NCBI RefSeq assembly: GCF_013407925.2
Contig: NZ_CP060201.1
Coordinates: forward strand, 3,348,001 to 3,412,000
DNA: 64,000 nucleotides
DNA from: Pseudomonas protegens
GTDB taxonomy: Bacteria > Pseudomonadota > Gammaproteobacteria > Pseudomonadales > Pseudomonadaceae
Direction: 5' to 3'
The notes beneath the pieces are model-generated. The model made no database searches. It was not told the DNA's origin and worked only from the letters and a program-made list of their open reading frames with translations. The position numbers and the translations under genes are program-made. Of this stretch, positions 6,056 to 18,484 are shown one piece after another. Every line of letters begins with the position of its first letter. Position 1 is the stretch's first letter.

Positions 6056-7495
6056 TCAGCGTTGCGCTGCGGGCACGCCTTGCGGCTCGGCCTGGGTGGC
6101 GGCCGAAGGTTCGGCAGGCCAGGCCTTCAGGTCCAGGTCCAGATCGGCGAATTTGCGCGAGTCGAACACCGGCTGGTCGACCCCGGCGCGGCGCTGTTCG
6201 TCGTAGTCGCGCATCACCCGCAGGCCGACCTTGAACAGCATGGCCAGGGCCACCAGGTTGACGAAGGCCAGGCAGGTCATGGTGATGTCGGCGAAGGCGA
6301 ACACGGTCGAGAGGTCTTGCATCGAACCCCAGACCACCAGCGCCAGCACCAGGCCGCGGAACAGCATCAGCACCGCGCGGTTGCGGGTGAGGAACTGCAG
6401 GCTGTTCTCGCCCAGGTAGTAGTTGTAGAGGATGCAGGTGAAGACGAATAACGACAGCGCGACGCTGACGAACAGGCGGCCCCAGTCACCGACCACGGCG
6501 GCCAGCGAGTTCTGGGTCAGGACGATGCCGTCGCCTTCGAAGCCCGGGGTGTAGAAGCCCGACAGCAGGATCAGCAGCGCGGTGCAGGTGCAGATCACGA
6601 AGGTGTCGAGGAACACGCTGAACGCCTGGACCACGCCCTGGGCGCCCGGGTGCTTCACCGCGGCCACCGCGGCGACGTTAGGCGCGCTGCCCAGGCCCGC
6701 TTCGTTGGCGAATACTCCACGCTTCACGCCCATGACGATGGCGCTGCCGAGCAGGCCGCCGAAGGCCGGGTCGAGGCCGAAGGCGCTCTTGATGATGGTT
6801 TCCAGCATGGCCGGTACGTGTTCGATCTGGGTGCCGATTACGTACAGGGTCACGGCGATGTAGGCCAGGGTCTTGACCGGCACCAGCAGGTCGGACACCG
6901 CGGCGATGCGCTTGATGCCGCCGATGAAGGTGATGGCCAGCAGCACCGCCAGGACGATGCCGGTGTGGCTTGGGGCGAAGGCAAAGGCGTCCTGCAGCGA
7001 GTGGGTCACGGTGTAGGACTGCAGGCCGATGAAGGCGAAGCCGTAGGTGACCAGCAGCAGGATCGAGAACACCACCGCCATGCCTTTGAGCTTCAGGCCG
7101 TGCTGGATGTAGTAGGCCGGGCCACCACGGTACAGGCCGTCGCCGTCGGCGCGCTTGTAGACCTGGGCCAGGGTGCATTCGAAGAAGCTGCTGGACATGC
7201 CGACCAGCGCGGTCACCCACATCCAGAACACCGCGCCCGGGCCACCCAGGGTCACGGCGATGCCGACGCCGGCGATGTTGCCCGCGCCCACTCGGCCGGC
7301 GAGGCTGAGCATCAGCGCCTGGAACGAGCTGAGCTGGCCGCCGCTGCTTTTCAGGCTGTCGCGGAACACCGCGAACATATGGAGGAAATGGCGCAATTGA
7401 ACGAAACGCGAGCGGATCGTGAAGTAGCTGCCGAGCCCGACAATGAGCACGATCAGTACTTTCCCTGAGAGGAAGTCGTTGATGACTTCGAGCAT
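6056..7495 (-). CDS. Alanine/glycine:cation symporter (AGCS family)
   Basis: A 479-residue inner-membrane protein with about ten hydrophobic segments. Family signatures include SSFQALMLSLAGRVGAGNIAGVG, GGPGAVFWMWVTALVGM, GGPAYYIQHGL, and GVKRGVFANEAGLGSAPNVAA. AGCS proteins import small neutral amino acids (alanine, glycine, sometimes glutamine or asparagine) with sodium or protons. GAGGAATAATCC before the ATG is a good ribosome binding site. The gene is followed by a type I asparaginase, hinting at an asparagine or alanine use unit, but substrate specificity cannot be read from the sequence. Confidence 0.9.
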   Translation of the reverse strand: MLEVINDFLSGKVLIVLIVGLGSYFTIRSRFVQLRHFLHMFAVFRDSLKSSGGQLSSFQALMLSLAGRVGAGNIAGVGIAVTLGGPGAVFWMWVTALVGMSSSFFECTLAQVYKRADGDGLYRGGPAYYIQHGLKLKGMAVVFSILLLVTYGFAFIGLQSYTVTHSLQDAFAFAPSHTGIVLAVLLAITFIGGIKRIAAVSDLLVPVKTLAYIAVTLYVIGTQIEHVPAMLETIIKSAFGLDPAFGGLLGSAIVMGVKRGVFANEAGLGSAPNVAAVAAVKHPGAQGVVQAFSVFLDTFVICTCTALLILLSGFYTPGFEGDGIVLTQNSLAAVVGDWGRLFVSVALSLFVFTCILYNYYLGENSLQFLTRNRAVLMLFRGLVLALVVWGSMQDLSTVFAFADITMTCLAFVNLVALAMLFKVGLRVMRDYDEQRRAGVDQPVFDSRKFADLDLDLKAWPAEPSAATQAEPQGVPAAQR

Positions 7496-7842
7496 GGATT
7501 ATTCCTCGCTGTTTTTTGTGTAGGCAAAAGCAGAGCGGACGGAAACATTCTGTTACACCGCTGATTGCACGCACGGCAAGGCGGTGGGGCGAGCGTTCGT
7601 CCCGGTTCTATATTTCGCGGGTTGTTATTAGTTCGGGTTTCCCGTGGGGTTGAGCCTCGTTACCGACGGCTGTCCACGTGAAGAGGGGGCGCACTATACC
7701 GGTGCGCGGGCTCGCCGTCTGCATGTTGCGCGTCGAGCCGAGGAACGGCAGGTCGGGCGGGAGGCTGAAACGGTTCTTGTCATGGCCCGCAAAGCCCCGC
7801 GAGCAGAGGCCCGCATCATCCCCTCGAAATCGCCGCCAAGTC
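7496..7842. other. Gene-free stretch upstream of the symporter gene
   Basis: No convincing gene. On the minus strand a GGTATAGT element (7693-7700) could be an extended -10 for the symporter gene, about 195 nt before its start. It sits in a GCGCAC/GTGCGC inverted repeat (7689-7707). I see no good -35, so the promoter is tentative. Confidence 0.3.
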
Positions 7843-7924
7843 GTAGGAGTTGGCTTGCCAGCGAAGGGGCCCGTTTGAGGGGTGGCCGTCTTGAGGGCTT
7901 GTTCGCCGGCAAGCCGGCTACGGG
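7843..7924. repeat. REP element, type A pair
   Basis: GTAGGAGTTGGCTTGCCAGC at the left is paired with TTCGCCGGCAAGCCGGCTAC at the right. It lies directly after the stop codon of the Rieske gene, at the 3' end of the seven-gene operon, where it may protect or terminate the transcript. Confidence 0.75.
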
Positions 7925-7925
7925 A

Positions 7926-8942
7926 TTACAGCCAGAATTGCTCTCGGCGCTCTTGGAAGTCCTTCAGTTCCCCCTGCTCCAGCAACTGCCGGATCCACGG
8001 CCCCAGCAGATCCAGCGAGCTGTCCAGAGGGGTGGGCCGCTGCCAGCGCAGCGGCACCCGGGCAAAGCGCTGCTGGTTGGCGCTGACCTGTTCGAGGATC
8101 TGCCGGTCCTGCTTGAGGATCACCTTGAACAAAGGCTGCAGCACGCCGCGCTTGAGCCAGCCCGGGGTGCGGCCGCGGGCCGTGGCGATGCGCGCGAACA
8201 GCCGCAGTTGGCCCTCGGCGGCCGGGCTCAGCCAGGCGCTGACCAGCAGGTTGAGCCGGCCCTGGCGGTCGCGGTATTCGATTTCCGCCAGCCCCGGCAG
8301 GCGAAAGCGCCCCATGCTGAGGCCGCGTTCGCCTTCGAACAGCCGCGATATCAGCCCGGACTGGGTGCCTTCTTCGCTGTACTGCGCTTCGATCCCGTCT
8401 TCCAGCTGATGCACCCAGGCGTGAATCCGCTGGCGTTGGCGGTCGTGGCGAATCCAGCCGGCGTGCACGAAATGGGTGTGGAAGCCGTCGAGGAAGTTCT
8501 CCGCGGCGTCCTGCAAGCTGCACTGCACCCGGTCGCTGATCCAGAACACATCCAGCGCCTGGGCCTGCTCGGCGGCGGCTACCGGCGGGGCATTCGGCCG
8601 TTCGCTGGCGAGGCTGGCCCACACCAGCCCCTGGGCTTCGCAGCTGTGCACAGGTTGCAGCAAGGGTTGGCTGCACCGCTGCTGCTCCTGGCCGGGCAGC
8701 TGAGTGCAACGGCCCTGGGGATCGAAGCGCCAGCCGTGGTAGGGGCACTGGATCTGCCCGTCGCGCACCCGCCCGGCGCTCAGCGGCGCAAAGCGATGGG
8801 GGCAGCGGTCCGGCAGCACCGCGGCGGCGCCGTCGGCGTCGCGAAACAGCACCAGCGGCACGCCGTGCAGGGTGCAGGCCAGGGGCTGCTTGTGCAGCTG
8901 CCGGCTCAGGGCGACGGGCCACCAGCCCGAGTGACTGTTCAC
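7926..8942 (-). CDS. Rieske [2Fe-2S] ring-hydroxylating-type oxygenase
   Basis: A 338-residue oxygenase alpha-subunit-like protein. The Rieske cluster ligands are in DRCPHRFAPLS and IQCPYHGWRF (C-x-H, 16 residues, C-x2-H). The mononuclear iron site is visible as NFLDGFHTHFVH (D-x2-H-x4-H). The nearest families are single-component-alpha enzymes such as vanillate demethylase or carnitine/choline oxygenases. They need a separate reductase, which is not encoded nearby. The start is the GTG at 8942: it overlaps the stop of the previous gene as GTGA, a translational coupling signal. The 21 codons upstream lie inside that gene. It is the last gene of the operon and likely performs a late oxidation of its product (inference). 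Confidence 0.85.
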   Translation of the reverse strand: MNSHSGWWPVALSRQLHKQPLACTLHGVPLVLFRDADGAAAVLPDRCPHRFAPLSAGRVRDGQIQCPYHGWRFDPQGRCTQLPGQEQQRCSQPLLQPVHSCEAQGLVWASLASERPNAPPVAAAEQAQALDVFWISDRVQCSLQDAAENFLDGFHTHFVHAGWIRHDRQRQRIHAWVHQLEDGIEAQYSEEGTQSGLISRLFEGERGLSMGRFRLPGLAEIEYRDRQGRLNLLVSAWLSPAAEGQLRLFARIATARGRTPGWLKRGVLQPLFKVILKQDRQILEQVSANQQRFARVPLRWQRPTPLDSSLDLLGPWIRQLLEQGELKDFQERREQFWL

Positions 8943-10078
8943 AGTTTGAGCTTCCTCATCAGCGGTACGCCGATCCGTTGCAGCAGCAGGCCCATCAGTT
9001 GCCACACCAGGCGCCGCGACCAGGGCAGGTGGGCGATGTGGATCAGGCTGTATTCGATCTGCGGCTCACCGCCGCGCAGGCGCTTGAAGGCGGCGGCGCC
9101 GGAGCTGAAGTTGAGCACCTGACGGCGGTTCACCGCTTCTTGCAGGCACAGCCGGGTCAGTTGCCGGTACAGGCCGGCGCGCTGGGGCAGGGCGGTGTCG
9201 TAGCCGACGATGGGGGTGCTGATCAGGGCGCTGTTGGCGAACCAGCCCAGGGCACCGTCGATGCGTCCTTCGGCGTTGCGCAGGGCGCGCACCTCCAGCC
9301 AGCCTTCGGCCTGCCCGCGTTGCAGCCATTGGGCGCTGTAGTGGGGGTTGAGGCGGCTGTATTTGTCCAGGTACAGCAGGTTGTACAGCTGCTCGATGCG
9401 CTGGAAGTCGGCCTCGTTAAGCTCGCTGCCGGGCACCACCGTATACGGACTGCGGCGCAGCAGGGTGGCGTCCAGGCGGGTGTTGTGGTGACGCAGGAAG
9501 GCGGAATTCTCGCCCTCGCGGCCGTCGAACAGGTACACCTGGCGGCTGGGAATCGCCAGGTAGCCCAGGGCTTGCAGGCGCTTGCGCAGTGCGCGGTTGC
9601 TGAAGTCGTTGAGCGAGCGAAAGCCAAAGCCGTGGTCGGGGAACTGCCGGCGCAGCAGTTCGGTGATCGCCGGCAAATCCGAACCATCCCAATCGGCGGG
9701 GTACAGGTTGGTCGACAATAGCCAGTTATTGACCTGCACCAAACGGTCGACCTTGGCCGCGCTCAGCAGCCGGTCCACGCCCTGGGTCAGCAGCTTCAAG
9801 GGCCAGGCCAGCCAGGGCCGTTGCAGGCGCTGCAGTTCTTCCCGGGCATAACCGCTGTAGGCGGTCTGCGGCGACACCACGTAGCAGTTATCCACAGGGT
9901 CGTGGCCGTGGTTGATGCTCACCGGGAACTGATGATGGCCGGTGTCCAGCAGGGCCAGGGCGGTGCTGACGTTGCCGATCAGCGCGCCGCCGGCGCAGGT
10001 GCGCACGTACTGCCGGGCGTGGCTGTCGCCAGCGCTCGGGGGCTCCAGGGCCAGTTGCTCGGGCAGCAGCAGCTTCAT
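8939..10078 (-). CDS. GNAT-like acyltransferase of an orphan biosynthetic operon
   Basis: A 379-residue protein starting MKLLLPEQLALEPP. Its second half resembles a GNAT/FemX-type fold (RNAEGRIDGALGWFANSALISTPIVGYDTALPQRAGLYRQ followed by QVLNFSSGAAAFKRLRG), as in BioF2-like acetyltransferases. The first half, with HHQFPVSINHGHDPVDNCYV, is unfamiliar and may hold another substrate-binding part. The ATG overlaps the previous stop as ATGA, so it is translationally coupled to the ATP-grasp gene. The substrate is unknown. The call rests on weak fold resemblance; a BtrH-like or other acyltransferase assignment is possible. Confidence 0.55.
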   Translation of the reverse strand: MKLLLPEQLALEPPSAGDSHARQYVRTCAGGALIGNVSTALALLDTGHHQFPVSINHGHDPVDNCYVVSPQTAYSGYAREELQRLQRPWLAWPLKLLTQGVDRLLSAAKVDRLVQVNNWLLSTNLYPADWDGSDLPAITELLRRQFPDHGFGFRSLNDFSNRALRKRLQALGYLAIPSRQVYLFDGREGENSAFLRHHNTRLDATLLRRSPYTVVPGSELNEADFQRIEQLYNLLYLDKYSRLNPHYSAQWLQRGQAEGWLEVRALRNAEGRIDGALGWFANSALISTPIVGYDTALPQRAGLYRQLTRLCLQEAVNRRQVLNFSSGAAAFKRLRGGEPQIEYSLIHIAHLPWSRRLVWQLMGLLLQRIGVPLMRKLKL

Positions 10079-11229
10079 GGGCGCGGTGCTCCCAGGGGCT
10101 GGCCGTTCCATTCGATATCGGCGGTGGAGGCGGCCAGCAGCCCGCAGCGGCGGGTCAGGGCGCGGCCGATGATCTCGCTCAGGCTCAGCAGTTGGGCGGT
10201 CAGCGGGCCGCGATCGCCGTCCTGCACGATCACGTCCCGGGCTTGTTGGTAGTCGTGCCAGAACGTGCGGCTCAAGGCCCGTTGCGGCGCCGCCAGAAGC
10301 AGCATGGCCAGGGCGATCATCCGCGGTTCCAGGGTCGCCTCCAGCGCTGCGTCGGTTTCGCTGCCCAGCGCTGCCACCAGTTGCACCCGCTGATCGTCGA
10401 ACAGGTGCACGCCGCTGGTGGCCCTGGGGTTGCACTCCAGGACATGGAAGCGGCCCTGCTGGTCTTCGATGAAGTCGAAACCCACCTGCCCGGTGTAGCC
10501 GGTGGCCTGGCCGAACTGCTCCAGAAAGGCGCGAATCGGCGCTGGGGCACAGCTGTGGAAGTAGATCCCCGAGCCGCGCCCGACCCGGTAGCGCGGCTGG
10601 TAGCTGCTGTGGGCGCGCAACTGGCCGTCCACCAGCACGCTGAAGCTGCAATATTCCTGGCCGGGGACGAACTGCTGGGCCACCCAGGGCGCATCGCTAC
10701 TGGGGCGGATCTTGGCCAGTTGCGCCGGGCTCGGGCGGATCAGGGTCTGGGAGGCGAAGCGCGAATAGGCCGGCTTGAACACCAGGGCGTCGTGCTCCGC
10801 CGCCAGCGCTTGCACCGCAGCCGGGTCATGCAGCACTTGGGTTGGCGGCGCGGCCACGGCCCAGCCTTGGGTCATGGCAGCAAAATCGCCCTTGTGATGC
10901 AGGCGGTGCAGCAACTCGAAATCGCTGGTGAACACCCGGCACAAAGGCCGCAAGCGCTCCAGGCCGTGGGCCAGGTAGAACACCTCTTCGCAGGTGGGCA
11001 GCAGCAGGTCGATGGCCTGTTGGCGGATGACCCCGGCCAGGGCTTCGATCCAGGCCTCCGGGTCGTGGCGCGGCTCCGGCAGGCGCACGAAGTGCTCGGC
11101 GGCGCGGCTGAAACGGCTCAGGGGCTGGGCCAGGGAATCGGCCACGGTCACCGTCCAGCCGGCTTGGCCAAAGGCCCGGGCCCACTCCAGGCAGGCCGGG
11201 GCCCGGGCGCCGAGAATCAATACACGCAT
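10075..11229 (-). CDS. ATP-grasp ligase of an orphan biosynthetic operon
   Basis: A 384-residue ATP-grasp enzyme. It has an N-terminal Rossmann-like pre-ATP-grasp domain (MRVLILGARAPACLEWARAF). The ATP-grasp core follows, with VFKPAYSRFASQTL, VAQQFVPGQEYCSFSVLVDG and the metal-binding segment FDFIEDQQGRFHVLECNPRATSG. Such enzymes activate a carboxylate as acyl phosphate and join it to an amine or thiol. The chosen ATG overlaps the upstream gene by 13 bp, and its stop overlaps the next ATG, so it is embedded in the operon. The acyl and amine partners are unknown. Confidence 0.8.
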   Translation of the reverse strand: MRVLILGARAPACLEWARAFGQAGWTVTVADSLAQPLSRFSRAAEHFVRLPEPRHDPEAWIEALAGVIRQQAIDLLLPTCEEVFYLAHGLERLRPLCRVFTSDFELLHRLHHKGDFAAMTQGWAVAAPPTQVLHDPAAVQALAAEHDALVFKPAYSRFASQTLIRPSPAQLAKIRPSSDAPWVAQQFVPGQEYCSFSVLVDGQLRAHSSYQPRYRVGRGSGIYFHSCAPAPIRAFLEQFGQATGYTGQVGFDFIEDQQGRFHVLECNPRATSGVHLFDDQRVQLVAALGSETDAALEATLEPRMIALAMLLLAAPQRALSRTFWHDYQQARDVIVQDGDRGPLTAQLLSLSEIIGRALTRRCGLLAASTADIEWNGQPLGAPRP

Positions 11230-12575
11230 GGCAGTCCCTCGGGTGGTTGCAGCATCAGCAGGCGGCGTCTTTTCGTCTGTGGCGGCGGTGCCTGCCAGTG
11301 GCCGAAGCTCAGATCCGGCGTCTGCAGCCCTTGTTGCGCGCAGAGTTCGGCCAGGGCTTCGCGCAAGCGCTGACACAGCCCGTGGTAGTCGCCCGAGGCA
11401 CGCAGGTTGACCTGCCAGAGCAGCCCGCGCTGCTGGATCTGGTATTCCTCCAGTTCCGCCCCGAGCATCAGCAGGGCCCTGCGCAGTACATCCGGGTAGA
11501 GCGGCGCCAGCTGCTGGCCGTCGAGCCGCGGCAGCCAGAGGATCTCGTCGGCGCGGCCTTCCACGGCGGCGATGGCCCGCTCCGCACGGCCACAGGGGCA
11601 GGGCGCGCTGGCGACCCGCAGAATGTCGTTGAGGCGATAACGCACGATCAACTGCGTGCGCCGGGAAAAGTCGGTGATGATCGGCTGGAAGCGCGTGCGC
11701 TCAGGGTCCAGCCATTGCGGCTCGATGTGCAGGTGGCTTTCATTCAGGTGCAGGGTGCCAGCCTCGCAGGTGTAGCCGAGAAAGCCTTCGCTGGCCTGAT
11801 AGATCTGCTGCGGCTTGCGCCCGAAGGCTTGCTGCACCAGCTCGGCGTCGGTGCTTTCCAGCACTTCGGCCACCGACAGGATGTGCCGTGGGCGGATCGT
11901 CAGCTGCCCGGCCAGGGCCGCCTGGGCCAGCCCGCGCAGCACCGTGGCCGGGGCCACCAGCACGTCCGGGTTCTGCTGGTTGAGGCGTTTCAGGGAGGCG
12001 GTCAGGCCCAGGGTCAGGTCATGAAAGGCGAAGTCGATGCGGCGGCTGGCCAGGGTGGTGTACAGGCGGCTATTGGCCCGCAGGAAGAAGGCGATGCGCA
12101 GCGGCGCCAGCCAGGGGCACAGCAGCCGGGGCAACAGCGCCCGGGGCAGGGTGCGCGCCAGCAGGATGCCGGCCCAGCGCTGGCGTTCCACGCTGCTGAC
12201 CAGGAACACCCCCTGAGCCCCCGAGGTGCCGCTGGACAGGCCCACGGTGATGTCCCCCAGGGTCGGGCTGAAGTCCCGGGAACGCTCGGCCTGCAGGGCC
12301 ACCGGCAACACCTGTTCCAGGCTCAGGGCGCGGGTGTTGAAGGCGGCGAAGTCGCTCATCAGGGTGGCTTTGTCCATGAGCGGCAAGCTGTGCAGGCCGT
12401 CGTGGGTCAGCCCGTTGAAGCGCTGGCCACGGGGCAGGACTTTGGCCATGAAGTGCCGCAGGCGCCGGGCCTGCCAGGCTTCCAGCCGCTCGCGGCGGCG
12501 AAAGCGCAGGGCGTAGCGGCTGAACACGAAGGCGCCGATGCTGCGCAGGGTGCCCAGCAGGCGTTCACTGTTCAT
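11217..12575 (-). CDS. PaaK/F390-synthetase-like adenylate-forming enzyme
   Basis: A 452-residue protein resembling the clade annotated as putative adenylate-forming enzymes or coenzyme F390 synthetase-related proteins. The ATP-binding motif is GLSSGTSGAQGVF (residues about 112-124). YQASEGFLGYTCE is the middle motif. RYRLNDILRVASAPCPCGR and VEGRADEILWLP are the typical PaaK-like C-terminal signatures. Such enzymes adenylate a carboxylic acid and often transfer it to CoA or another acceptor. GGAGG lies about 10 nt before the ATG, and the gene overlaps the hydrolase gene by 11 bp. The acid substrate is unknown. Confidence 0.8.
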   Translation of the reverse strand: MNSERLLGTLRSIGAFVFSRYALRFRRRERLEAWQARRLRHFMAKVLPRGQRFNGLTHDGLHSLPLMDKATLMSDFAAFNTRALSLEQVLPVALQAERSRDFSPTLGDITVGLSSGTSGAQGVFLVSSVERQRWAGILLARTLPRALLPRLLCPWLAPLRIAFFLRANSRLYTTLASRRIDFAFHDLTLGLTASLKRLNQQNPDVLVAPATVLRGLAQAALAGQLTIRPRHILSVAEVLESTDAELVQQAFGRKPQQIYQASEGFLGYTCEAGTLHLNESHLHIEPQWLDPERTRFQPIITDFSRRTQLIVRYRLNDILRVASAPCPCGRAERAIAAVEGRADEILWLPRLDGQQLAPLYPDVLRRALLMLGAELEEYQIQQRGLLWQVNLRASGDYHGLCQRLREALAELCAQQGLQTPDLSFGHWQAPPPQTKRRRLLMLQPPEGLPCVY

Positions 12576-13419
12576 TGGCGAAGGCCTCCCAGGCCTGGGT
12601 GCAATGGGACGGCAGCACCGCCACCGCCGGTTCGCGGCGGATCAGCTGGCCCAGGCCGCTGTAGGTGCGCACATATTGCTGACGGTCGGCGCTGGCAAAC
12701 CACAGTGCCGGTGCAGCGGGCAGGCGCTCGGCGCGGCAGGCCGGCACCGACCAGCAGGCGTCGGCCACCAGGAACACCGGCCGGCCCTGGGCATCGGGGA
12801 TGAACAGGCCCAACTGGCCTTTGCTGTGCCCTGGCAGCGGCACGCCGATCAGGCTGCCATCGCCGAACAGGTCCAGGCCTTGCTCGAAGGGCGCCATCCA
12901 GCTTGGCAGCGCACAGCTGGGGCTGGCTTCGGCCAGGCGCAGGCGGGCGCTGAAATCGTCCGGCAGCAGGCCCGGCAGATGGCCGCCCAAGGTGGCGCGC
13001 CAACGCTGGCCGCGCAGGCTGTCGATATGCCGGTAGTCGGCTTCCAGGGCGATAAAGCGCGCATTGGCAAAATCCCGCAGCCCGGCGATATGGTCGGCGT
13101 GGAAGTGGGAAATGATCACATGGCGGATATCCCCCGGGCCGATGCCCAGCTCATGCAGCTGCGCCCCCAACTGCTCGACCACCGGCAACTGCACCGGCAC
13201 TGCGCTGCGGTACAGGCGCTCGGGCAGGGCGCGGGTGGCCTGGAAGAAGTGCTCGGCGTAGCCGGTGTCGTACAAAATCCAGCCGTGCTCCGGGTGCTGG
13301 ATCAGCCCGCACAGCGCCGGAAACTGCACCGGCGCCAGGCGCCCGCCACGGTCGGCCATGCATTCCAGGTGCTGGCACCAGCCGGCCCGCAGGATCTTCA
13401 AGCTCACGCTGCGGCTCAT
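12565..13419 (-). CDS. Metallo-beta-lactamase-fold hydrolase of the orphan operon
   Basis: A 284-residue MBL-fold protein. The metal-binding motif HFHADH is at residues 105-110 (VIISHFHADHIAGL), with later ligands in PGHSKGQLGLF, VADACWS and LPSHCTQAW. The layout is that of the AHL-lactonase/PqsE-like thioesterase branch, so a thioesterase or lactonase role is plausible. The ATG at 13419 forms ATGA with the stop of the epimerase gene. A large in-frame extension upstream of this ATG lies inside the epimerase gene and is rejected. Confidence 0.85.
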   Translation of the reverse strand: MSRSVSLKILRAGWCQHLECMADRGGRLAPVQFPALCGLIQHPEHGWILYDTGYAEHFFQATRALPERLYRSAVPVQLPVVEQLGAQLHELGIGPGDIRHVIISHFHADHIAGLRDFANARFIALEADYRHIDSLRGQRWRATLGGHLPGLLPDDFSARLRLAEASPSCALPSWMAPFEQGLDLFGDGSLIGVPLPGHSKGQLGLFIPDAQGRPVFLVADACWSVPACRAERLPAAPALWFASADRQQYVRTYSGLGQLIRREPAVAVLPSHCTQAWEAFANEQ

Positions 13420-14423
13420 GGTTTTTGTCTCTGTTGGGCCAGCCACCATTGGGCGTGCTGGGCGATGCCCTGGTCCTGGTTGATCACCGGGCGATAGCCC
13501 AGCTCGCGCTGGATGGCGCTGATGTCCAGGGTCTGGCTGAAGGCCAGGACGCCTGCGCCGTAGCGGGTGATCAAGGGTTCGGCGCCGTTGCCCAGCCGTG
13601 CCTTGAGCTCCAGCAGGCGCGCCACGCCATGCACCAGAGGCCAGGGCAGGCGGCGGGTGCGCAGCGGCAGGCGGAAGTGCTCGGCCATCTGTTGCAGCAG
13701 GTCCTTGAAGGCCAGGGGTGTGCCGTTGCTCAGGTTGTAGACGCACAGCGGGCGCGGCAGGGGCCGGGTCAGGGCCAGCCACACCGCGTGCACCAGATTG
13801 TCGACGCAGGTCAGGTCCAGCTGTGCCTGGCCGCCGCGCATTAGCGGAATCGCCCCGCGTTGCATCACCCGCAGCAGGCGCGGCATCAGGGTTGCGTCCC
13901 AGGGGCCGAACACCGCCCGGGGCCGCAGGATCACGCATTCGGGCAGCTTGGCGTCTGCCAGCAGGGTTTCGGCCTGGGCCTTGCTGCGGGCGTAGTCATT
14001 CACCGGTGGTGGCAGCGGCTGGTCTTCGCGGATGCCCAGGCGGTCGCTGAAATTGAAGTACAGGCTCGGGGTGGAGATATGCACCAGCCGCGGGATGCGG
14101 TTCTTGCCGCAGGCGTGGATCACCTCGGCGGTGGAGTCGAGGTTGGCCCGGGCAAACGCCTGGGGCGAACCCCAGGGTGACGACAAGGCGGCGCAATGCA
14201 CGATGGCGTCATGCTCGCGGCTGGCATCGGCCAGCAGGCGTTTGGCCAACGGGCTGCCGTGCTCCAGGGGCAGCCAGCGCACCGGCGCCGGGCTGTGGGC
14301 CATCACCTCGGCCGCCGCCTCGGGGTTGCGCCCGCTGAACTGCACCTCGCAGCCTTCGGCGGCCAGCTTCCAGACCAGATGCCGTCCGATAAAACCGGTG
14401 CCGCCGGTGACCAGGATCTTCAT
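13416..14423 (-). CDS. NAD(P)-dependent epimerase/reductase (SDR, OleD-like)
   Basis: A 335-residue extended short-chain dehydrogenase. The Rossmann motif is GGTGFIG (residues 7-13), HISTPSLYFNFSDR holds the catalytic serine region, and NDYARSKAQAE holds the Y-x3-K pair. It is close in style to 3-beta-hydroxysteroid dehydrogenases and to OleD, which reduces 2-alkyl-3-ketoacids made by OleA. It starts by TGATG overlap with the ketosynthase stop. Placed directly after a ketosynthase III, a role in reducing a beta-keto product is a reasonable inference, not shown. Confidence 0.82.
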   Translation of the reverse strand: MKILVTGGTGFIGRHLVWKLAAEGCEVQFSGRNPEAAAEVMAHSPAPVRWLPLEHGSPLAKRLLADASREHDAIVHCAALSSPWGSPQAFARANLDSTAEVIHACGKNRIPRLVHISTPSLYFNFSDRLGIREDQPLPPPVNDYARSKAQAETLLADAKLPECVILRPRAVFGPWDATLMPRLLRVMQRGAIPLMRGGQAQLDLTCVDNLVHAVWLALTRPLPRPLCVYNLSNGTPLAFKDLLQQMAEHFRLPLRTRRLPWPLVHGVARLLELKARLGNGAEPLITRYGAGVLAFSQTLDISAIQRELGYRPVINQDQGIAQHAQWWLAQQRQKP

Positions 14424-15442
14424 CAAAACTCCAGGATCAGGCCGCCGAGGGACAGGCCCGCGCCGGTGCCGATCAGCATCAGGGTCTGCCCGCGTTGAAT
14501 GCGCCCGTCGCGCACCGCGATATCCAGAGCGGTGGGCAGGGACGCCGCTACCTGATTGCCATGCTGGGCAAAGATATCGATGACTTTCTCCGGCCCCAGG
14601 CTCAGGCGTTTGGCCGCATGCTGCATGGCCTGCTGGCTGGCTTGATGGGGGATGATCCAGTCGATCTGCGCAAGGGAGACCCCGGCTTGCAGTAACAGAT
14701 CGTCCATCAGGTCCGGCAGGTGTTTGGCGGCGAGGCGGAACACGCCTTTGCCCTGCATCGCGAAGCTGGTCAGGGGCTCGAAGGGCACCTGGATGCGCCG
14801 CGGATGAAAGCGCGAACCGCCGGCGGGGATCTGGCACAGCGCGGCGCCTTCGGCGTAGGTCTTGAGGCGCGAGGCGAGGATCTTCGGGCCGCCGTCGCCC
14901 GCCTCCAGCACCACCGCTGCCGCGCCGTCGCCGAAGATGCCGCAGACTTCCACCTGCTGCCAGTCCAGGCCGCAGGAGGCGATGTCGGCGCACACCAGCA
15001 GCACGCGCCGGTAATGCCCGGCCTGGATCGGCCAGGACAGGGTGTCCAGGGCGGCAATAAAGCCCAGGCAGCTGGCGTTGATGTCCATGGCCGGGATGCC
15101 CGACTGCCCCAGGCCCAACTCCCGTTGCAGCAGCGCGGCGTTGCAGGGCATGCCTTGGTCCTGGGTGCCGCTGGCGCAGACGATCAGGTCCAACTGATCC
15201 AGCGCCAGGCCCGCCGCGTGCAGGGCCTGGCGCGCGGCACTGGCACCGAGGCTGGCGGCGGTGTCCGCAGGATCGGCGACGTGGCGCTGCTGCACCCCGC
15301 TGATGCGCGCCACGCTGCCGGCTTCCAGGCCGAGCTGGCGGTCCAGCTCGGCACTGGTGACCACCCGCTGCGGCAGGGCGTGGCCGGTGCCGAGGATGGC
15401 CAGCGCACGGGCCGGGCGGGGGGAGGACGCTGATGTGTGCAT
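14423..15442 (-). CDS. Beta-ketoacyl synthase III (FabH/OleA-like), first gene of the orphan operon
   Basis: A 339-residue thiolase-fold condensing enzyme. The triad is complete: Cys125 in DINASCLGF, His266 in IPHQAS, Asn296 in HGNQVAAS. The CGIFGDGAAAVVLE motif is typical of FabH. It does not look like the housekeeping FabH: it is alone with unusual partners and no fatty-acid synthesis genes. No acyl carrier protein is encoded in the operon, so it may use acyl-CoA or a cellular ACP. It is the first of seven genes reading left. The ATG at 15442 is the furthest upstream good start, with GGAA about 8 nt before it. Confidence 0.85.
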   Translation of the reverse strand: MHTSASSPRPARALAILGTGHALPQRVVTSAELDRQLGLEAGSVARISGVQQRHVADPADTAASLGASAARQALHAAGLALDQLDLIVCASGTQDQGMPCNAALLQRELGLGQSGIPAMDINASCLGFIAALDTLSWPIQAGHYRRVLLVCADIASCGLDWQQVEVCGIFGDGAAAVVLEAGDGGPKILASRLKTYAEGAALCQIPAGGSRFHPRRIQVPFEPLTSFAMQGKGVFRLAAKHLPDLMDDLLLQAGVSLAQIDWIIPHQASQQAMQHAAKRLSLGPEKVIDIFAQHGNQVAASLPTALDIAVRDGRIQRGQTLMLIGTGAGLSLGGLILEF

Positions 15443-15477: not shown

Positions 15478-16137
15478 TCAGGTGGCGGACGGCGCGACCG
15501 GGCAGTGGCTCAGAAAGGCTTGCAGCCCTTGCTGATATGCCTCGTCGTCCATCAGTTCACTGTGTTTGGCGATGCGGCAGGCCTGGCCCTTGCGCTGCAT
15601 CTCGGCGCTGGCCACGTCATAGAAGTGGGCCGCTTCACGCAGGTACACGACCTGCTCCCAGGTCAGGCTGCTCTTGGCGCGTGGGAGTTTGCTCAGGGTG
15701 AAACCCTGGTCGTCGAATGTCAGGGTGTAAGTGCCTTCGGTGGCCTTCAATGGCGCCCGCAGGCGGGCTTCGATCAGGCGCTGGTTCAGGCCGCGCAGCG
15801 GCGCTTGGGGTTTGATCGGGGTGGCGGCAATCCGGGCTTGCAGGTGCTTGATCCAGCGTCCGGAAAAGCGCCACCACAGTGGGATGAAGATCAAGGCGAA
15901 CGCCACCATGGCGATGACCTTCTCCGGGGTGAAGGTCCGCTCGGGGAAGTAGATCGACAGGCAGCCGCCGATCAGGCACAGGGTGAACATCACGGGACCG
16001 ATCAAGCGGCTTTGCCACCGGGCAAATGTGCTCATGACCCGGACATGCTGTTGATCATCCTTGAGCAATTCCTGCTTCAGCGGTTCGGCAATCCAGGCTT
16101 CGGTGTGGGCGGGGGTGATGCGGTAGTGCAATTCCAT
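15478..16137 (-). CDS. YcxB-like membrane protein
   Basis: A 219-residue protein (MELHYRITPAHTEAW) with two adjacent transmembrane segments, VMFTLCLIGGCLSIYF and VIAMVAFALIFIPLWW. The C-terminal soluble domain (YTLTFDDQGFTLSKLPRAKSSLTWEQVVYLRE) matches the YcxB-like pattern. A longer reading frame adds 45 residues, but the chosen ATG fits the start of the conserved part. It lies 35 bp upstream of the ketosynthase and could be its operon leader gene, but it also looks self-contained. Function unknown. Confidence 0.65.
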   Translation of the reverse strand: MELHYRITPAHTEAWIAEPLKQELLKDDQQHVRVMSTFARWQSRLIGPVMFTLCLIGGCLSIYFPERTFTPEKVIAMVAFALIFIPLWWRFSGRWIKHLQARIAATPIKPQAPLRGLNQRLIEARLRAPLKATEGTYTLTFDDQGFTLSKLPRAKSSLTWEQVVYLREAAHFYDVASAEMQRKGQACRIAKHSELMDDEAYQQGLQAFLSHCPVAPSAT

Positions 16138-17145: not shown

Positions 17146-17499
17146 TCAGGGGCCGGGGCGGGCGCCGTCGAGCAGGGCGTCCACCACGGCGCGGGCCATT
17201 TCCACGGAATGCACCATGGACCAGATCAGCCCGCGTTCGATGCCGCTGGCCCGTTCGGTGATTTCATCGGACACCTCTTCGGCGCATTTGAGCAGCAGGG
17301 AAACGTGCATCAGCGCGTCTTCGGCATTTACCTGGGGTTGCACGGCGAACAGCGGGTGGCCTTGAGCGTCGCGCAGGCCGAAGGGGCGATGGCGGGTGCC
17401 GTGCAAGGCGGCCAGCAGGTTGGCGTTGGCGCGGTCCAGCTCCGGGTCCCGGCGCGGACGATCGGTGGGCAAGGGTGGATCGGGGACGAGCTTTTTCAT
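17146..17499 (-). CDS. DUF6124-like small protein, copy 1
   Basis: A 117-residue acidic, helical protein (MKKLVPDPPLPTDRPRRDPE) of the kind annotated DUF6124/DUF3077 in Pseudomonas. A PLFAVQPQVNAEDALMHVS segment is followed by two helices. There is no signal peptide. An alternative GTG three codons upstream (17508) exists; the ATG is chosen because it aligns with copy 2. The protein is identical to the one at 18131-18484; the genes differ by a few silent bases, so duplication or gene conversion is recent. It is preceded by a structured leader with a small upstream ORF. Function unknown. Confidence 0.75.
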   Translation of the reverse strand: MKKLVPDPPLPTDRPRRDPELDRANANLLAALHGTRHRPFGLRDAQGHPLFAVQPQVNAEDALMHVSLLLKCAEEVSDEITERASGIERGLIWSMVHSVEMARAVVDALLDGARPGP

Positions 17500-17632
17500 G
17501 ACGGTCACTCACTCAGTAGTTAACGGACTGCCGAGCTCACTTCCACATGAGGGGTGGCAGTTGTGCGAGGGTGTGGAAGACCGGGACTGAGTAACCCAGC
17601 ACACCCGAAGGTGTCCCGCGCACAACCGCCAT
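17500..17632 (-). promoter_or_regulatory. Structured 5' leader of DUF6124-like copy 1
   Basis: On the mRNA, TTACTCAGT (17586-17594) can pair with ACTGAGTGA (17509-17517), just before the start codon. CTTCCACA and TGTGGAAG form a second hairpin inside it, and CACCTTCGGGTG is a third. In copy 2 the same outer stem is present with different bases, which is covariation between paralogous leaders. The stem would hide the translation initiation region. Whether it is a switch is inference. Confidence 0.55.
17537..17632 (-). CDS. 31-codon upstream ORF in the leader, copy 1
   Basis: ATG at 17632 to TGA at 17537. The peptide starts MAVVRGTPSG and ends PLMWK. The uORF in the second leader has exactly the same length, the same TPSG/APSG start and the same PLMWK end, despite compensating small shifts in the middle. 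This may be a leader peptide, or the frame may simply follow conserved RNA structure. Translation is not demonstrated. Confidence 0.35.
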   Translation of the reverse strand: MAVVRGTPSGVLGYSVPVFHTLAQLPPLMWK

Positions 17633-18130: not shown

Positions 18131-18484
18131 TCAGGGGCCGGGGCGGGCGCCGTCGAGCAGGGCGTCCACCACGGCGCGGGCCATTTCCACGGAATGCACC
18201 ATGGACCAGATCAGTCCGCGTTCGATGCCGCTGGCCCGTTCGGTGATTTCATCGGACACCTCTTCGGCGCATTTGAGCAGCAAGGAAACGTGCATCAGCG
18301 CGTCTTCGGCATTTACCTGGGGTTGCACGGCGAACAGCGGGTGGCCTTGAGCGTCGCGCAGGCCGAAGGGGCGATGGCGGGTGCCGTGCAAGGCGGCCAG
18401 CAGGTTGGCGTTGGCGCGGTCCAGCTCCGGGTCGCGGCGCGGACGATCGGTGGGCAAGGGTGGATCGGGGACGAGCTTTTTCAT
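18131..18484 (-). CDS. DUF6124-like small protein, copy 2
   Basis: Its 117 residues are identical in sequence to the protein at 17146-17499. The start codon is preceded by CTAAAGGAACCAGTCTC, in which AAAGGA is the probable ribosome binding site. That site is fully base-paired to an upstream segment in the leader. Keeping two identical proteins under leaders that differ in primary sequence suggests recent gene conversion of the coding part or selection for dosage. Function unknown. Confidence 0.75.
   Translation of the reverse strand: MKKLVPDPPLPTDRPRRDPELDRANANLLAALHGTRHRPFGLRDAQGHPLFAVQPQVNAEDALMHVSLLLKCAEEVSDEITERASGIERGLIWSMVHSVEMARAVVDALLDGARPGP

Follow-up and report, generated by a model that had tools for sequence, protein, structure and literature searches.

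Long-chain olefins are made by the OleABCD pathway, which consists of a condensing enzyme, the reductase OleD, an OleC-type ligase and an OleB-type alpha/beta hydrolase, and the condensing enzymes CorB and MxnB work with large polyketide synthase (PKS) assembly lines. For the Pseudomonas quinolone signal (PQS), an excerpt of the published account describes PqsA as a ligase, PqsD as condensing with malonyl-coenzyme A (CoA) or malonyl-acyl carrier protein (ACP), and PqsE as a thioesterase (PMC4807248), so that a ligase, a FabH-like ketosynthase and a thioesterase do work together in a known pathway. Here, we describe a seven-gene minus-strand operon of Pseudomonas protegens, at positions 7926-15442 of a 64,000-nucleotide stretch (contig NZ_CP060201.1, positions 3,348,001 to 3,412,000; hereafter the window, whose numbering we use). 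We propose that it is one form of a large family of operons built from two exchangeable modules: M1, encoding a ketosynthase (KS), a short-chain dehydrogenase/reductase (SDR), a metallo-beta-lactamase-fold hydrolase (MBL) and an adenylate-forming enzyme (ADE), and M2, encoding an ATP-grasp ligase (GRASP), a GNAT-fold transferase (GNAT) and a Rieske oxygenase (RIESKE). An earlier note on this DNA, made from its letters, had called the operon an orphan, a description that no longer holds. We are nearly certain that a real conserved pathway is encoded, and we put at about 0.5 the probability that it is a two-module, carrier-free route in which a beta-hydroxyacyl chain is coupled to an amine, given an aminoacyl group and oxidised.

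The seven reading frames fill the interval and overlap at all six junctions by 1-13 bases (from KS to RIESKE: 1 base, TGATG; 4, ATGA; 11; 13; 4, ATGA; and 4, GTGA, with a GTG start for RIESKE), as expected for translational coupling. In this, in its family calls, which agree with Pfam and NCBIfam, and in its picture of a biosynthetic operon that encodes a condensing enzyme, a reductase and a hydrolase, two enzymes of ligase type, and a GNAT-fold transferase and an oxygenase, but neither a carrier protein nor an exporter, the earlier note was right. Residues are called conserved below when 97% or more of the aligned rows with a letter at that position share the same residue, and we presume such positions to have the catalytic or metal-binding roles usual for their families. 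KS (14423-15442, 339 amino acids) is a ketosynthase III of the FabH/CorB-like type (Pfam ACP_syn_III); it scores under the cut-off of the FabH model TIGR00747 (248.4 vs 292.1 bits), just below that of the ketosynthase III model PRK07204 (398.7 vs 402 bits) and over that of the wider subfamily PRK09352 (265.9 vs 249 bits). It had been termed FabH/OleA-like, and the first half of that name stands: FabH and CorB-type structures match best (205-218 bits) and the triad Cys125, His266 and Asn296 is conserved in a 78-row alignment, whereas none of the 41 structure matches listed is named OleA. CorB and structure 4v2p, which we take to be MxnB, align with KS over nearly its full length (205-211 bits), with a common NASCL stretch and GGSR loop, but the window operon has no PKS assembly line. 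SDR (13416-14423, 335 amino acids) is an extended enzyme of the Pfam Epimerase family with conserved Ser117, Tyr144 and Lys148. MBL (12565-13419, 284 amino acids; Pfam Lactamase_B) is AHL-lactonase-like; the matches listed are mostly AHL (N-acyl homoserine lactone) lactonases and none is named PqsE. Its HxHxDH motif (His105, His107, Asp109, His110) and His198, Asp220 and His272 are conserved, and we propose that it is a thioesterase or lactonase. ADE (11217-12575, 452 amino acids) is PaaK-like and exceeds the TIGR02304 cut-off (390.1 vs 251.9 bits), with a conserved SGTSG motif, Glu263, Asp317, Arg341 and Cys326/328.

The M2 proteins begin with GRASP (10075-11229, 384 amino acids), which exceeds the PRK06849 cut-off (453.7 vs 406 bits) and conserves Lys152, Glu265 and Asn267, the last two presumably binding Mg. 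Its AlphaFold2 model (predicted local distance difference test, pLDDT, 95.8) lies closest to CPS-like, GARS, PurK and PylC folds, a resemblance to carboxylate ligases. Both the ATP-grasp fold and the conserved Lys and Glu/Asn are those of amide ligases of the GARS/PylC type; amide formation is predicted, and we hold amide ligation to be somewhat more probable than not. GNAT (8939-10078, 379 amino acids) is matched directly by no Pfam or NCBIfam model at 0.001, and 18 of its 51 aligned relatives match Acetyltransf_6 at 0.01. Its predicted structure (pLDDT 95.0) is a double-GNAT fold whose best fold matches are the aminoacyl-tRNA-dependent transferases Sbb17, FemX and MprF, and two alignment profiles (A2 and A3) gave no sequence-level match to FemX/MprF-type transferases. 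RIESKE (7926-8942, 338 amino acids; Pfam Rieske and VanA_C) is a non-haem iron oxygenase that conserves Cys47, His49, Cys66 and His69 together with Asp152, His155, His160 and Asp279 (54 rows).

In gene content alone, the operon resembles pqsABCDE in uniting an acid ligase, a FabH-like KS and an MBL-fold hydrolase (PqsE being, as we take it, MBL-fold), but it has a single KS with no PqsBC-like pair, a ligase of another subfamily, and SDR and M2 in addition. With OleABCD it shares a condensing enzyme, an OleD-like reductase, an adenylating enzyme and a hydrolase; the differences are an SDR below the OleD cut-off, an MBL-fold hydrolase and a TIGR02304 ligase. All the enzyme families are known, and the combination is apparently uncharacterised in the literature searched (open-licence PubMed Central, PMC), where none of the titles and abstract openings listed (20 of 321 for one query) pointed to a paper on the seven-gene set or its product, in line with the earlier note, and we found none on the sister operon of Escherichia coli described below. 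The NCBI labels read only "F390 synthetase-related" for the ADE family and "hypothetical protein" for the GRASP family. Excerpts of two papers name a "Coenzyme F390 synthetase", one listed in P. aeruginosa ATCC 27853 (PMC5467263) and one hit by Tn5 among 91 reduced-virulence mutants of P. syringae pv. actinidiae (PMC9823363); these excerpts show no operon and are not used here, and the F390-labelled ligase in the part of PMC2649909 available is a different one.

A scan of species-representative genomes with the GRASP alignment gave 79 loci. Plasmid and additional genome loci were added to these, every locus having been chosen for matching GRASP or ADE, and our own profiles served to type 97 of them, after removal of short stretches (L001-L006, L086-L095 and L104-L113), repeats of loci already counted (L124-L126, L130 and L133) and probable repeats (L123, L127-L129, L131 and L132, all six with the full seven-gene order); L142-L149 and L172-L178 lie outside the 97. 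All seven families are present in 42 of the 97 loci, and 29, the window included, keep the window's gene order. The search for this order in other loci, which the earlier note had suggested, thus succeeds in 28 of 96, and because so many loci keep the same order the arrangement is not chance. The best matches are Pseudomonas: P. protegens 14B2 (96-99% per protein), then P. protegens FD6 and Pseudomonas sp. Au-Pse12. Occurrence is sporadic, with GRASP in 20 of the 398 genomes searched from the window's genus, and the flanks of the cluster differ between related species. In the window genome itself (6.8 Mb, single contig), ADE and GRASP each have a single match, and a plasmid search found no near-identical copy of the operon.

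Gene loss and fusion vary this pattern. Eighteen loci that have KS and GNAT lack RIESKE, and 8 that have KS and GRASP lack GNAT, some of these being contig-edge losses. SDR and MBL form a single protein in all seven planctomycete loci that have both, GRASP and GNAT are fused in one Cardiobacteriaceae locus, as are MBL and ADE in a single Paenibacillus. In P. protegens 14B2, GRASP and GNAT share a joined frame, perhaps through an artefact of sequencing. A fused frame was scored as one family only in the order strings and distance sets, and frames are joined or split in L029 and L082. A Paraburkholderia plasmid locus (L099) was scored as having RIESKE although the match, at about 12501-13500, spans two frames with no annotated gene and looks broken. 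Five Paenibacillus loci (L053, L054 and L058-L060) have two GRASP genes, after KS and after ADE, and the first two also carry an extra protein of 186-189 amino acids between GRASP and GNAT.

The division into modules appears first in pairwise distances, which correlate at 0.954-0.965 among KS, SDR, MBL and ADE, at 0.951-0.973 among GRASP, GNAT and RIESKE, and at 0.864-0.904 between KS/SDR/MBL and the three M2 proteins. ADE is the exception, at 0.946-0.967 with both modules, in a set without the ADE-less lineages. When only distant pairs are taken, rank correlations are 0.69-0.74 within M1, 0.57-0.83 within M2 and 0.29-0.57 between them. Since closely related Pseudomonas loci influence the plain correlations, the trees of KS and GRASP (34 selected rows each) count for more. 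Two Verrucomicrobia stand beside Pseudomonas in the GRASP tree (100/97) and Aquitalea inside a wider clade (100/100), places that neither takes in the KS tree, where the verrucomicrobial branch is very long. The Paraburkholderia plasmid shows the reverse, its KS grouping with a Pseudomonas-Thiothrix clade (98/97) and its GRASP with Lysobacteraceae (100/100). By these sequence comparisons, M1 and M2 behave as separate evolutionary units that have been exchanged independently, also between phyla.

M1 also occurs without M2 in a sister operon, here called type B, with the order KS-SDR-MBL-ADE-PAP2-hydroxylase-desaturase. The four M1 genes and their order are the same (window proteins are 37-43% identical to those of E. 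coli), but genes for a PAP2 phosphatase, a fatty-acid hydroxylase and a desaturase, all confirmed by Pfam (PAP2, FA_hydroxylase and FA_desaturase), take the place of GRASP-GNAT-RIESKE. None of these three lies beside M1 in the window operon, and the window genome has no close relative of the hydroxylase, the sole match at 1e-10 being 31% over residues 65-226 of 374. Type B is present in all seven genus genomes (of 398) that have ADE but no GRASP and in three of four gammaproteobacterial genomes of that kind. Among 5426 E. coli genomes, 672 have a match to it, which in 671 covers 80% or more of the operon; in E. coli KE48 it lies at 7122-14003 of the record, between narI and purU, and the 12 E. 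coli records listed come mostly from human sources. A nucleotide search of E. coli with the M2 of Providencia, sensitive to roughly 65-70% identity, gave no match. Providencia rettgeri, Pseudomonas sp. H3(2019) and Herbaspirillum autotrophicum have type B and an unlinked GRASP-GNAT-RIESKE set, Chromobacterium subtsugae has type B and an unlinked GRASP (the sole M2 gene in the stretch read), and in an Aquitalea locus the two sets are adjacent in opposite directions. Such genomes would make the product of M1 the common substrate of the two tailoring sets. On plasmids of Ketogulonicigenium and Paracoccus (L097 and L098), KS-SDR-MBL-ADE stands with a TetR regulator and a sulfotransferase, with no GRASP on the record.

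M2, for its part, depends partly on M1. ADE is missing from 28 of the 97 stretches, and all 28 sources were searched for it elsewhere with the same protein and limit; the background frequency, 10 of 398 phylum genomes, comes from the TIGR02304 model and so from a different query. Thirteen stretches have GRASP without any M1 gene nearby, and nine of these 13 genomes have ADE elsewhere, namely all seven isolates and two of six metagenome genomes (one match being a contig-edge fragment). Around eight ADE-elsewhere matches, KS, SDR, MBL and ADE stand together in six, one has MBL-ADE at the edge of a contig, and in Calothrix ADE is alone; the match of C. subtsugae has two stops within the aligned stretch. 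Four genomes with GRASP and no ADE found (L047, L071, L073 and L084), all metagenome drafts, speak against such a dependence. Eleven further stretches have KS-SDR-MBL without ADE nearby, and none of their genomes has ADE elsewhere (1e-20), so that ADE seems dispensable in these lineages. As for the remaining four of the 28, Calothrix (L066) has ADE elsewhere, a Chloroflexota source (L065) has a 32% partial match, L055 has none, and a Deinococcus QL22 plasmid (L102), which carries a GRASP-GNAT pair, has none on the plasmid, the only part covered.

In the genus draw of 398, all 20 GRASP genomes are among the 27 ADE genomes (apparently the same draw); as the two are mostly linked there, the chief lesson of this table is that M1 can exist in the absence of M2, as would be expected if M1 acts first. 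Four of nine other phylum genomes with ADE, from one gammaproteobacterial family, likewise have no GRASP. We think it likely that M1 is upstream and makes a scaffold that M2 decorates, a confidence that the completed ADE-elsewhere search lowered slightly. An SDR-MBL fusion search of five genomes gave no full-length match, the best being L055's own, cut by its contig, and SDR paralogues blur the result. The planctomycete draft genome from which L084 comes (G829; GRASP-GNAT-RIESKE, no ADE) has, on its contig C53, SDR and MBL matches about 1.3 kb apart on opposite strands. Among Snodgrassella loci (L045-L047 and L145), two of the three with GRASP, L045-L047, also have GNAT relatives; the genome behind L045 (G809) carries KS-SDR-MBL-ADE at an unlinked site, that of L046 (G825) has ADE, and the metagenome genome of L047 has none.

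What, then, might the operon make? The architecture is well supported, and we infer from here each chemical step and the product. KS would extend an acyl thioester, SDR would reduce the beta-keto group and MBL would hydrolyse the thioester to a free (beta-hydroxy) acid; the families suggest condensation, ketoreduction and release for M1, and for a beta-hydroxy acid as the outcome we see an even chance. ADE would adenylate a carboxylate, either of a starter acid before KS or of the released acid, roles that we rate about equal, with the early, replaceable one slightly favoured because some lineages have no ADE. The free acid released by MBL would be a natural substrate for an ATP-grasp ligase, and GRASP would use ATP to couple it through an amide bond to an amine or amino acid. 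An aminoacyl group from aminoacyl-tRNA, or an acyl group, would next be added by the GNAT-fold enzyme, and oxidation by RIESKE would give a small, lipid-like product, either an acyl amide or an aminoacyl-lipid. That the chain is lipid-like is suggested by the hydroxylase, desaturase and PAP2 of type B. Aminoacyl-tRNA dependence, suggested by the modelled fold, is possible but somewhat short of even odds. The outline of activation, joining and oxidation given in the earlier note is accordingly supported in its enzyme types, but its acylation step is uncertain, the GNAT fold being closest to aminoacyl-tRNA-dependent transferases. More tentatively still, the operon may represent a new pathway class free of PKS and non-ribosomal peptide synthetase (NRPS), in which a portable KS-SDR-MBL-ADE cassette found in unrelated bacteria, GRASP and an aminoacyl-tRNA-dependent FemX/MprF-like transferase yield a Rieske-oxidised aminoacyl-lipid or lipodipeptide; we find this general form rather doubtful.

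Starter activation as in PQS biosynthesis is the alternative that survives best, though we judge it unlikely. ADE would make the CoA or adenosine monophosphate ester of an unusual (aryl or branched) acid, KS would condense it with malonyl-CoA or malonyl-ACP, SDR would reduce the product and MBL would release it as PqsE does, leaving M2 to act on an aryl or other non-fatty acid. The enzyme types are those that the excerpt gives for PqsA-PqsD-PqsE (PMC4807248), ADE is PaaK-like, and its apparent dispensability in the 11 KS-SDR-MBL genomes is possible for a starter enzyme. The PQS biosynthetic enzyme 3h76 is indeed among the structure matches of KS, but at 107 bits it is weaker than the FabH/CorB-type structures; the lactonase-like matches of MBL, none of them to a named PqsE, and the hydroxylase and desaturase of type B, which suggest a long chain, also tell against it.

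Distinctly less probable is an Ole-like route in which KS, SDR and ADE act as OleA, OleD and OleC to give an alpha-alkyl beta-hydroxy acid and, by ring closure, a beta-lactone, which MBL would open or guard. ADE-type enzymes adenylate acids and MBL is lactonase-like, and OleD, to which the earlier note likened SDR, is its best NCBIfam match, but at 162.5 bits SDR falls far below the cut-off of 580. The hydrolase is not an alpha/beta hydrolase, ADE is PaaK-like and M2 would be left without an obvious role. In addition, KS position 98, where the catalytic Glu of OleA, an enzyme of non-decarboxylative head-to-head condensation, would be expected, is Met, Ile, Leu or Val in all 78 rows and never Glu. 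This hydrophobic position and the FabH/CorB-type structure matches led us away from an OleA-like KS as the leading interpretation. That the operon instead serves primary metabolism, in lipid modification or catabolism, for which its lack of a regulator, exporter or resistance gene and the lipid enzymes of type B could be cited, is very improbable given the sporadic occurrence of GRASP and ADE, the differing flanks of related species and the exchange of modules between phyla.

Upstream of KS, a YcxB-like membrane protein gene (15478-16137, minus strand) is a candidate eighth member. The gap of 35 bases and the retention of this gene before KS in 12 Pseudomonas loci, window included, make an eight-gene transcript possible; the 12 belong to one Pseudomonas group, and L012 and L016 also keep the gene where the remaining flanks differ. 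The window copy has no Pfam match and the L012 copy scores 22.8 bits against a YcxB cut-off of 23.3. Promoter and terminator scans were near shuffled controls (1 vs 0.6 and 8 vs 6.6), and the flanking genes of the loci read include no constant regulator or transporter. An XRE-type helix-turn-helix protein is a candidate regulator of mostly non-Pseudomonas clusters: it is encoded near the cluster in eight loci, beside KS in seven (L024, L036-L038, L041, L069 and L083) and about 5 kb off in L048, with a similar gene in L142. Further upstream in the window lie near-identical minus-strand copies of a DUF6124/DUF3077 protein gene, about 1 kb apart (17146-17508 and 18131-18484).

If our reading of a two-module pathway is true, a common biosynthetic cassette has gone unnoticed in Pseudomonas, Snodgrassella, Paenibacillus, planctomycetes and many E. 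coli (roughly an eighth of those searched), and acyl chains would be decorated by tRNA- or ATP-driven enzymes outside NRPS and PKS lines. Module exchange and the unlinked cases provide an experimental handle, since M1 would be expected to give the precursor, and M1 with M2 the finished compound.

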